In this document: in pieces, positions 33,203-36,707 of the stretch | How positions within the stretch are numbered: position 1 is the first letter of the stretch | Layout: each line of letters starts with the position of its first letter | The notes under the pieces: generated by a model | Databases searched by the model: none | The model's input: the letters and a program-made list of their open reading frames with translations, nothing else | What the model was told of the DNA's origin: nothing | Translations under genes and position numbers: made by a program | Assembly (NCBI RefSeq): GCF_009498235.1 | Contig: NZ_CP044205.1 | Location: 4,031,389-4,095,388 of the forward strand | Reading direction: 5' to 3' | DNA from: Candidatus Methylospira mobilis | GTDB taxonomy: Bacteria > Pseudomonadota > Gammaproteobacteria > Methylococcales > Methylococcaceae | Length of the DNA stretch: 64,000 nucleotides

Positions 33203-33346
33203 ATGACCGGGAACCGATTGCTGATTACCGGGATTAACGGACTAATCGGGAGCATACTGCGAAAGGCCTGGGGCCGGAGTGCATACGATTTCCGGCACAG
33301 GCCGGAAAAGGCCCTTATTCCGGACAGATATGCCGCTTCTATATTA
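33203..33346 (+). pseudogene. NAD-dependent epimerase/dehydratase, N-terminal fragment
   Basis: Fifteen bases behind uup, with a GGAGG ribosome binding site, the frame MTGNRLLITGINGLIGSILRKAWG carries the GxxGxxG Rossmann motif of extended short-chain dehydrogenases. The fragment is interrupted at 33346 by an IS element; the continuation of the same fold lies at 34166 onward. A one-base phase change just before the junction shows that the gene was already damaged or has decayed since. Confidence 0.65.
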
Positions 33347-34165
33347 GGTTCTATTGACATGAGCACGCGCCACCAGTGAAGCTGGAACCATTTCGAAAAT
33401 GGCTCTAACCGGCTCGACATTAGCGCCGAAGACTGGAGCGTTATCTATCCCATACTGGTGAAGCATCGGCATGTCCGGTCGACGTCCGGGGAACAGTGCC
33501 GGGTCTTTCTGATCGCCGTTCTGCAAACTCTTCGATCGGGATCGCAATGGCGTTTGCTGACGGAAGCGCATGGCAACTGGAACGCCGTGTTCAAGCGTTT
33601 TTCCCGCTGGAGCAGGCATGGGGTTTGGCGGTCGCTGTTCGCCGGATGCATCCATCATCCTGATGTGCAAAGCGTGTTTATCGACTCCACCATCAACCGG
33701 GCTCATCCCTGCGCCGGTTGGCGCGGCGGGCGGCAACGCCGGGGACGAAGCCTTGGGACAATCGAAGGGCGGGTTCAGCACCAGGATTCACGCCATCACG
33801 GATGCTTTGGGGGAATCCCCTCGAATTCGTACTGACCGGAGGGCAGGCTGAAACCTTGCCGGCGCTGACGCCGGCGGGTGCGCGTGCGTTTGTCGGCGAC
33901 AAAGGCCATGACAGCGATGCGCTGGTCCAGGCCATCGTAGCAAGGGATATGAAAGCCGCCATTCCTCCGGCGCTGCAATCGGAACAAGGTGCGCGAATGC
34001 GATTGGCTTATTTACAAGGAACGCCGTCTGATTGAATGCTTCTTCGACAAAATCAAACATTACCGGAGAATATTTTCGCGTTTTGAAAAAACGGCTCGCA
34101 ACTACATGGCCTTCCTTCACTTTGTCTCAGCTCTCATTTGGTTGCGGTGATACGTCAACAGAACC
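33347..34165. mobile_element. IS5-family (IS427-like) insertion sequence, decayed, ~819 bp
   Basis: Left end GGTTCTATTGAC (33347-33358) and right end GTCAACAGAACC (34154-34165) are inverted repeats with one mismatch. Each end is flanked by TA (33345-33346 and 34166-34167), consistent with the TA target duplication of IS427-type elements. Between them is a transposase reading frame broken by several frameshifts. The element has landed inside an epimerase gene. Confidence 0.85.
33380..34150 (+). pseudogene. IS5-family transposase, frameshifted
   Basis: Reading in order: frame one gives ISAEDWSVIYPIL, VLQTLRSGSQWRLL and FSRWSRHGVWRSL, then FIDSTINRAHPC with the first catalytic Asp. After a shift comes GGNAGDEALGQSKGGFSTRIHA, then TGGQAETLPAL and VGDKGHDSDALV, the second Asp region. 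After another shift comes IYKERRLIECFFDKIKHYRR with the Glu and FHFVSALIWLR before TGA at 34148. IS427 members naturally use one programmed frameshift, but at least three phase changes here and no good start indicate an inactive copy. Confidence 0.85.
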
Positions 34166-34345
34166 TAGCAACGCCCGGCAATTTGTTGATCTATTACGCA
34201 AGTTTTCTGCGGTTGATGCCGTAATCGAGCTGGCCGCCGACTCCCATGTTTATGTTGATTGGGAGCATGCCTGTACATCAATATTTAAAGAAGTTCCGTC
34301 TTCATGGTTACGTCACTTCACCATGCAGAGGCGTAAAAAAAAACA
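34166..34345 (+). pseudogene. NAD-dependent epimerase/dehydratase, internal fragment
   Basis: Beyond the IS right end the frame reads SNARQFVDLLRKFSAVDAVIELAADSH, matching the epimerase stretch in which a helix is followed by VDAVIHLAADS after the Rossmann beta-alpha-beta unit. The catalytic YxxxK part and everything downstream are missing. Together with the fragment at 33203 it is one gene split by the IS. The end of recognisable homology near 34250 runs into the small-RNA region. Confidence 0.6.
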
Positions 34346-34366
34346 GGGTGCCTGCTAGACGCCCTG
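34335..34366 (-). terminator. Intrinsic terminator of candidate small RNA B
   Basis: Minus-strand hairpin: nine-position stem with one mismatch and one G-U pair, five-base loop, and nine Ts directly after (A-run at 34335-34343 on the plus strand). Confidence 0.75.
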
Positions 34367-34433
34367 CTCAAGAGAAGGAGGAGGATCTCACGCACTGCGC
34401 CAGATCGCTTGAACGGTAGAATCCCTTCAAGTG
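34335..34433 (-). ncRNA. Candidate small RNA B (~99 nt, CU-rich linker, intrinsic terminator)
   Basis: On the minus strand a TATAAAAT box at 34447-34440 would start RNA near 34433. The predicted RNA folds CTTGAA...TTCAAG (12-base loop), then GATCT...AGATC, then a single-stranded CU-rich tract CCTCCTCCTTCTCTT, and finally a hairpin CAGGGCGTC/GGCACCCTG followed by nine Ts. This hairpin-hairpin-linker-terminator plan is typical of trans-acting small RNAs whose CU-rich loops pair with ribosome binding sites. No -35 box is seen; an imperfect palindrome GTGACAGATTGTCGC lies about 58 bases upstream of the start. Not verified by expression or conservation. Confidence 0.5.
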
Positions 34434-34520
34434 TCGATAATTTTATAATAAACATGATTTTTATGAATGTGGCATATTGCCGCGTGACAGATTGTCGCAT
34501 CTTAAGTCTGCCGCGTCCGC

Positions 34521-34548
34521 AAAAAAAGGGCTGCCAAACAGGCAGCCC
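34521..34548 (-). terminator. Intrinsic terminator of candidate small RNA A
   Basis: Perfect inverted repeat GGGCTGCC-TGTTT-GGCAGCCC on the minus strand followed by seven Ts (34527-34521). It is the strongest intrinsic terminator seen in the window. Confidence 0.9.
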
Positions 34549-34825: not shown

Positions 34826-36328
34826 TTAAAACTCGACATGGGCGCGTCCGGAAACGACATTAACCGGACCACGGTCTGCGTTGTAAGCCGGGTGGGCGAT
34901 AAACTGGTAGTCCGCAGAAACCCAGAGCGAACTCCAGACGTTGTAACTGTAGAACAGATCCACCACCTGCTCGGGTTTCTGCGTTATCTTGCCGTCGCCG
35001 ATAAAGCCGTCGATGCCGCCCATGCCCAGGTACTGCGCATGTATGCCGGATATCCAGCCTTGGGAATAGCCCAGCCCCAGCAAATCCTTTTTGCGATCCC
35101 AGAGGCCGCCGCTGATCAGCGTGCCGAGTGAAATGGAACGGTCGGTAGAGGTATAGGAATACACTTCGGTCTGACCATCCGAATACATGCCGCGGAAGAA
35201 GATGCCGATATCGTCGGTTATCGCCTGCTCCAGATTGATGCCGCCGCCGAATTTGTCGTTGGGTTTGCGCGCCCAGCACAGATCCGGCGCAGTCGGATTC
35301 TGATTGTCGTAACTGAATGCGCCGGCAGGACAAGCCGTAGCGTTTTCAGCTCCGCCGGAATTATTGTACGCACTGATTGCATCGCTGAACTTGGCCATGT
35401 TTTCATGGTTGTGAAAAAACAGCAACCGTACCGCGCCTTTACGCCCGAACAGGGTATGCCGGTGTTCCAGCTCGTACTGGTCGCCATAATAGGCCAGCGT
35501 CGACCATTGCAAATCCAGTTGATTGGGGTTTTGAGGCGGCAAAAAACGGGCAGCCCTGAAAGTCCAATCGTCTAGATAGTATTCGGCCACCACGCCGAAG
35601 GAGTAGCCGCGTGCGTCGGCGGCGAAATCGTAGGCGGCAAACGACAGAAAGGACATGTTCAAAAACTGCTGACGCAGATCGCCCGAATAGATGTTTTTAT
35701 CGAAAACATCGAGTACGCTGAGAATGCCGCCGGTTAAAACCAGGCGGTTGCCGTCTACCGTAGTGCCCAACTGCAACGGGTCGGACTCCAGCTTGATCCG
35801 TTCGCCGCCCAGATTGAAGGTTTGACGCAGATAGGCGCGCGACAAATAGATGGTGGGTTGCTCTGTGCCGTTTTTTTGTAGCTCGAAGTTTTGTATCGAG
35901 CCGCCCAAGCCCTTCAGACCTGAAAAAGGGGTTTCCGAAATCATTTCCGGCGCAAGATAAACATGCCCGCCGTCCCACAATTTCACGCCAAAGTAGCCGG
36001 TGACCGTCCCGGTAAACGAAATTTCCGCTTTAGGCGTCAAGGAGTTGGTAGAGCCACCGAAATTAGTGTATTTCGCTGAAAAAGCCGGATGGTAGTTATA
36101 GACGAAAGTGCTTTGCCCGTAAGCGTTCCAGCGTTCGTCCTCCATATCGTGGAGTCCGTACTGATTCAACAGCTTCATGAAAGAAAACTCGTCTTCTCCG
36201 CGCGGCTCAGGCTCGGCTACTTCTGCATGCAGCCGCACAGAAAATCCCGATGCGACCAGTAATGCGATCAAGATAGGGATGTAGCGAGCACGCACGACTA
36301 GTCGCATATGCGCTTGGAAGAAAAACAT
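34826..36328 (-). CDS. Outer-membrane porin, OprB/carbohydrate-selective-porin-like
   Basis: Predicted outer-membrane beta barrel. A signal peptide (RYIPILIALLVASGFSVRLHA) is followed by DEFSFMKLLNQYGLHDMEDERWNAYGQSTFVYNYHPAFSAKYT, alternating strand segments, aromatic-rich turns, and a C terminus ending GRAHVEF with the terminal Phe recognised by the BAM machinery. ATG 36328 is favoured by an AGGATAG ribosome binding site; 36307 and 36382 are in-frame alternatives. The body resembles the carbohydrate porin OprB group of ~500-residue proteins. It is divergent from a response regulator/kinase pair that may control it. Substrate unknown. Confidence 0.78.
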   Translation of the reverse strand: MFFFQAHMRLVVRARYIPILIALLVASGFSVRLHAEVAEPEPRGEDEFSFMKLLNQYGLHDMEDERWNAYGQSTFVYNYHPAFSAKYTNFGGSTNSLTPKAEISFTGTVTGYFGVKLWDGGHVYLAPEMISETPFSGLKGLGGSIQNFELQKNGTEQPTIYLSRAYLRQTFNLGGERIKLESDPLQLGTTVDGNRLVLTGGILSVLDVFDKNIYSGDLRQQFLNMSFLSFAAYDFAADARGYSFGVVAEYYLDDWTFRAARFLPPQNPNQLDLQWSTLAYYGDQYELEHRHTLFGRKGAVRLLFFHNHENMAKFSDAISAYNNSGGAENATACPAGAFSYDNQNPTAPDLCWARKPNDKFGGGINLEQAITDDIGIFFRGMYSDGQTEVYSYTSTDRSISLGTLISGGLWDRKKDLLGLGYSQGWISGIHAQYLGMGGIDGFIGDGKITQKPEQVVDLFYSYNVWSSLWVSADYQFIAHPAYNADRGPVNVVSGRAHVEF

Positions 36329-36707
36329 GACACTATCCTGGTTAACGACTTTAAACATTTGAATCAATACTTTATAAACCAAACAAAACCAGCCCTATTA
36401 TTCAGCGAGACGTTATCAGTGAATATGGTAGCAACCAACGCGCTGTTTTCATGGGTGCTGCCCGTCAAAACAGGCAAGCTAGCACAAGCGATTGGGTTGT
36501 GGTTAGTTTGCCGACTTTTTAATCATTCAATTTCGACTGCAGGAACGGTCCCAAAACTTGAGTCTCCATGATAACGGCGGATATGGTAATAAAAAACAGA
36601 TTAAGCAAGTCTGAATTCTTCTTCAGAATACAAGCCGGTGTGAACAAGCAGGTTAAACTATTGACGGACAAATCCAGACTCGCTCATGACTACGCATGCA
36701 AAGAATT
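36329..36707. promoter_or_regulatory. Divergent promoter region between porin and response regulator
   Basis: About 380 bases. A dyad TCTGAA-TTCTTC-TTCAGA lies at about 36609-36626, some 80 bases before the regulator start, and could be an operator for the adjacent OmpR-type protein. No clear -35/-10 pair was assigned. A plus-strand frame beginning at 36308 is open here (87 residues), but it has no recognisable relation and starts inside the porin. Confidence 0.35.

Follow-up and report, generated by a model that had tools for sequence, protein, structure and literature searches.

A putative small RNA of about 99 nt lies on the minus strand of the DNA stretch analysed in this study, 64,000 nt of the genome of Candidatus Methylospira mobilis (contig NZ_CP044205.1; hereafter the window). 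Judging from sequence comparison, we consider it probable that this is a trans-acting anti-Shine-Dalgarno (anti-SD) small RNA (sRNA) controlled by RegA, that it belongs to an undescribed family conserved in Methylococcales, and that it forms a post-transcriptional arm of the RegB/RegA redox two-component system. The predicted features behind this proposal are an operator beside the promoter, paired stems, an unpaired UCCUCC or UCCUUCC linker, a terminator and, in most lineages examined, a divergent regBA. A first-pass annotation of the window had described a candidate sRNA at this place and taken it for an expressed regulator. The small-RNA interpretation of the locus is supported and the RNA is presumably expressed, and both the tandem operator at 34499-34468 and the RegB/RegA connection go beyond that earlier account.

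Structure of the predicted RNA

The unit consists of the following parts (coordinates within the window).
34335..34433, minus strand: predicted small RNA, about 99 nt, its 5' end inferred from the promoter (fold, homologues)
34408..34431, minus strand: hairpin 1, CUUGAA...UUCAAG (fold, sequence)
34384..34406, minus strand: hairpin 2, GAUCU.GCGC...GCGU.GAGAUC (fold, sequence)
34370..34383, minus strand: anti-SD linker CUCCUCCUUCUCUU, in DNA CTCCTCCTTCTCTT, fully unpaired in the fold (fold, motif in 66/70 units)
34335..34369, minus strand: intrinsic terminator and U9 tail, with the hairpin at 34369-34341 and nine T at 34343-34335 (scan, fold)
34440..34467, minus strand: sigma-70-like promoter TTCATA-16-TAAAAT, 9/12 (scan; position relative to the operator conserved)
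34447-34440, minus strand: TATAAAAT box (sequence)
34468..34484, minus strand: promoter-proximal operator CGCGGCAATATGCCACA, abutting the -35-like hexamer and overlapping the upstream operator by 2 nt
34483..34499, minus strand: upstream operator TGCGACAATCTGTCACG, two mismatches to TGCGACA-NNN-TGTCGCA, in a tandem arrangement shared by genus g9 loci

The box, two hairpins, linker, terminator and nine Ts of the first-pass annotation are thus all present on this strand, except that the box falls just outside the interval 34335-34433 to which it had been assigned. The fold of 34433-34335 reaches -38.4 kcal/mol against -26.6 +/- 2.8 for 200 dinucleotide shuffles (z -4.2), none of which was as good (0/200). 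Promoter-like sites (4, with 3.1 expected) and terminator-like sites (8, with 6.3 expected) are both at chance level in the 5-kb region, therefore the significance of the locus rests on conservation. These scans are also what would favour the view that promoter-like, CU-rich and terminator-like stretches came together by chance, an explanation to which we give practically no weight, as it is refuted by order-wide conservation with the same anatomy.

Conservation in Methylococcales

A DNA search of 61 genomes, including that of Ca. M. mobilis itself, led to one genus, Methylocaldum, through a weak match that shared the core AGTGCGTGAGATC-(C)-CUCCUC and a terminator. Used as a pattern, this core has seven copies with 0-1 mismatch in all four genomes of the genus, and beyond that genus one single-mismatch match among 311 genomes of the order. 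A first sequence model added two more genera, and a second one, with the operator included, gave matches at E<=1 in 25 of the 38 genomes of the family, many of them true by eye and some chance. For the third model, 25 sequences holding both operator and linker served as training set, and it matched 277 of the 311 Methylococcales genomes at E<=0.01 (209/228 of the high-quality genomes, 49/50 genera), these figures being model matches, some of which may be operator-only. Among 369 genomes of the class, 16 were matched, three of them from the order, and most of the others in the operator/promoter part only. That relatives should keep both the terminator and the CU-rich linker, a check named in the first-pass annotation, is borne out, with operator, promoter zone, linker and terminator all kept across the order.

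Individual matches were also judged by eye. Ten stretches were returned by an operator-plus-core scan of the collection, two of which are true, both from Methylocaldum sp. 14B (the second being L083), and seven of the eight from other organisms (L080, L082, L084-L089) were judged to be chance. Besides terminator-only matches, the loci L064, L071, L072 and L079, and likewise L112 and L114, were dropped as chance ahead of the later counts, and L202, at the same place as L111 and at first set aside as chance, is a real unit on re-reading. Outside the order, locus L140 (G463:C208:4125-4301) matched the whole model with an E of 0.0088 and is followed by a hairpin that contains CUUCCCCCCC and by a run rich in T; either a remote relative or a different RNA driven by such an operator is conceivable here.

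Seventy units were extracted from 66 of 67 sources, and L201 is unit-like by eye, yet was missed by the operator pattern. A segment complementary to the Shine-Dalgarno (SD) sequence lies in the linker of 66 of the 70 units, compared with 13.3 expected from dinucleotide shuffles, a count which, like that of 27 in 40 for regBA below, describes well-scoring loci and not a random draw, because the 40 order loci were chosen among the higher-ranking matches of the third model, with roughly one for each genus and some additional copies. The mean probability of being unpaired over the 70 units is 0.90 for this segment and 0.46 for the whole RNA. An extended -10-like TGNTANNNT occurs in 43/70 units, and a conserved open reading frame (ORF) was not found in them, the longest ORF having a median of 10 and a maximum of 22 amino acids. 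Of the features expected of an anti-SD sRNA, those readable from sequence, namely a predicted promoter of its own, an intrinsic terminator, no conserved ORF and a conserved unpaired SD-complementary segment, were found.

As to compensatory changes in the stems, another check named at the outset, double changes were seen in the terminator of one chosen subset. Family f8 has UCCUUCC, UUCUUCC or CACUCC as linker, and an outer stem encloses the inner hairpin; this outer stem is mostly invariant and therefore uninformative on pairing. Alignment A5 holds 14 of the 18 family f8 units, L171, L174, L184 and L210 being excluded because they had gaps or nearly duplicated others, and its pair counts therefore describe a chosen subset: three of six terminator pairs show double changes, and pairing falls from 95% to 34-58% when the partners are slid.

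Tandem RNA units were found in L188, L190, L205, L206, L274, L276 and L282, some of them between regB and the next unit, and three Methylocaldum-genus genomes have two dispersed copies in addition to one beside regBA. Such multicopy and tandem arrangements in some genomes, together with the short and structured nature of the RNA, could also be expected if it mainly titrated a protein, as a CsrA/RsmA-like or Hfq sponge, instead of pairing with ribosome-binding sites. However, the conserved unpaired element is CU-rich, that is, the complement of a GGA motif, and the alignment is without conserved GGA loops, thus we regard a protein sponge as improbable.

Linkage to regBA

For the 40 order loci, flanks of up to about 3 kb to either side were inspected. 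In 27 of them, from four families and in one orientation throughout, regB and then regA lie divergent from the RNA, and RegB was also found in 15/15 further loci with short flanks, several being from the same genomes. The best NCBIfam matches of the two proteins are the ActS/PrrB/RegB and ActR/PrrA/RegA families (NF033792/NF033791), and by such best matches, under the cut-offs, RegB and RegA are encoded in the genome of the window. Here the single RNA copy, which has kept the tandem operator, and regBA are about 1.16 Mb apart, and a similar palindrome, with 3 mismatches, is found 35-51 nt ahead of the start of the genome's own regB. Neither a search at the DNA level nor one with a permissive model revealed a second RNA copy in this genome. 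In the ancestor, the RNA and regBA were most likely linked, and in this lineage the RNA would be either relocated or a surviving second copy. Operator-like sites are also present elsewhere in this genome, at G000:C1:801952-801969 (L246) and G000:C1:4564671-4564688 (L247), one preceding an 866-amino-acid ORF and the other a 117-amino-acid membrane-protein-like ORF.

The operator and its putative regulator

In all accepted members, a palindrome close to TGCGACA-NNN-TGTCGCA lies ahead of the promoter, and the aligned operator is present in 25/25 rows of alignment A4 (25 of 27 sequences, G021a and G014b being left out), a presence that is partly built in, since the A4 rows and the later models include the operator. 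The operator is centred some 43 nt ahead of the expected start, at an activator-like position. The RegR box of B. japonicum is quoted as GNGRCRTTNNGNCGC in PMC5506826, and the half-sites and spacing of the operator appear close to it, with 59/70 operators fitting GNGRC-N5-GNCRC.

Several observations weigh against a RegA-controlled RNA of this kind. The full RegR box was found in none of the 70 units and the strict half-sites GNGRC-N5-GNCGC in 11 only, while the strict linker motif is missing in four units (L199, L202, G002 and G012). Thirteen of the 40 loci, that of the window included and some with short flanks, are without regBA within about 3 kb. RegB and RegA score under the curated NCBIfam cut-offs; at L120 the best matches have 234.5 bits for the kinase (cut-off 350) and 185.7 bits for the regulator (cut-off 250). 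Finally, operator-like sites occur in 74 of the 369 class genomes, where they precede genes without a clear redox theme, so another regulator is possible.

Such a regulator, for instance a metal-responsive factor, would recognise the 17-bp palindrome ahead of a conserved anti-SD sRNA, and the proximity of regBA would be an inherited position. In favour of this explanation, the palindrome is well conserved and widespread in the class, whereas RegA-type sites are reported to be degenerate (PMC5506826). Outside the order, moreover, the genes behind the palindrome (GCGACAATNTGTCNCATT in the gammaproteobacterial loci L242, L243, L244, L245 and L250) code for TonB receptors, PEP-CTERM proteins, a fatty-acid desaturase and exported proteins of unknown kind, some of which look Met-rich. 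On the other hand, the palindrome resembles the RegR box in half-sites and spacing, many lineages have operators between regB and the RNA, and the own regB of Ca. M. mobilis has a similar site, thus we consider control by a different regulator unlikely, though deserving of attention. A copper regulon was also considered for the operator, and no Pfam or NCBIfam family indicated copper. Ten operator-like sites were counted in genome G631, and the site at L254 (G043:C1:2105380) precedes a 590-amino-acid ORF, which, judged by eye, may be a regulator.

Proposed mechanism and significance

With RegA as the probable regulator, a redox signal would pass through RegB to RegA, which would bind the predicted operator, and if so, the RNA would be made upon the redox change signalled by RegB. 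Its UCCUCC linker would then pair with the SD sequences of a group of mRNAs, whose translation it would block, probably with Hfq at the U-rich tail. As an outcome, RegBA would gain a mainly repressive post-transcriptional arm. In Methylomonas sp. DH-1, RegA directly activates feo during methanol growth, according to PMC13274454, in whose main text the terms 'sRNA', 'small RNA' and 'motif' are absent. A bolder proposal, which we offer tentatively, is that all gammaproteobacterial methanotrophs have a RegB/RegA with its own divergent anti-SD RNA, single, tandem or duplicated, and that this built-in translational output rewires energy and metal metabolism as a core arm that defines the order.

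No native base-pairing sRNA regulator of gammaproteobacterial methanotrophs was found in the open literature. If our proposal is true, methane oxidisers own a conserved RNA output of a redox sensor, and there is a concrete gene for the study of shifts between methane, methanol, low oxygen and metal limitation, as well as a possible engineering scaffold. The evolution of a two-component system with an adjoining sRNA, whether linked, tandem, duplicated or relocated, might also be traced over one order.

Genomic context in the window

Two further features lie upstream of the RNA.
34521..34548, minus strand: terminator-like hairpin (34548-34528) of the OprB-type porin unit, separating that unit from the RNA (context)
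34826-36382, minus strand: OprB-type porin, the second transcription unit, upstream of the RNA with its own terminator-like hairpin between

The first-pass annotation had placed the RNA between an epimerase remnant and a second transcription unit. The latter is the porin unit, but the element closest to the RNA on the left is the remnant of an IS4/5 transposase with a broken reading frame (PF13340, 33458-33835), and the 'epimerase' fragment at 33203-33379 had no match in a Pfam search. The transposase remnant extends over 33458-34150 on the plus strand and adjoins the 3' end of the RNA; it may be related to the separation of the RNA from regBA. Since the RNA ends in an intrinsic terminator, it might be taken for an attenuator of transcription, or for the leader of a gene further downstream. 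However, what lies downstream in the window is this opposite-strand remnant, and in several relatives the nearest long downstream ORF is convergent (same-strand ORFs there were examined in part), thus an attenuator is very improbable. The porin's own terminator-like hairpin on one side and the opposite-strand transposase on the other make a free-standing unit likely.

Comparison with known systems

The Rfam search named in the first-pass annotation was run with Rfam 15, and at the gathering score the sole match in the window is a tRNA elsewhere, with none on the RNA. Nor was there any on five loci with Methylocaldum-genus copies, and none of the five matches listed for 20 order loci reached that score. 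A relaxed threshold gave six sub-threshold matches in the window region, all rejected as lying on the porin-terminator region or the plus strand and none on the RNA. The nearest Rfam family is suhB/mmgR (RF00519), with 26.0-28.6 bits in 4/20 order loci against a gathering score of 41; it is not among the matches of the window, whose RNA therefore does not count as a member, and it is possibly a distant relative or a look-alike.

The hosts of MmgR/suhB are Alphaproteobacteria, NfeR1/alpha-r14 of rhizobia has anti-SD loops, and the Neisseria sibling RNAs RcoF/NmsR and Xanthomonas sX13 expose CU- or C-rich loops directed at ribosome-binding sites, with tandem siblings. RcoF/NmsR and sX13 are set apart from the present RNA only by the absent Rfam match, and NfeR1/alpha-r14, named as a trans-acting RNA in PMC7143759, likewise by Rfam, the window and scanned loci being without a match. 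MmgR, as described in the same paper, is a short anti-SD RNA induced by NtrC. The present RNA resembles MmgR/suhB (RF00519, alpha-r8) in its shortness and anti-SD motif, and the L176 alignment shares GUUG..CGUU..UCC..terminator, but it stays below the gathering score throughout and has another operator and another neighbourhood. The sRNA PcrZ of Rhodobacter sphaeroides is, according to PMC8139620, induced through the RegA orthologue PrrA with a PrrA site in its promoter, and represses mRNAs by pairing. In these respects the proposed RNA is like PcrZ, which differs in being alphaproteobacterial with photosynthesis targets, the two having been compared by description. The open literature on methanotroph small RNAs and on RegB/RegA-linked small RNAs, most subscription papers being outside this scope, does not describe the present RNA family. 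It is a new RNA family of an already known kind, with PcrZ and MmgR for comparison.
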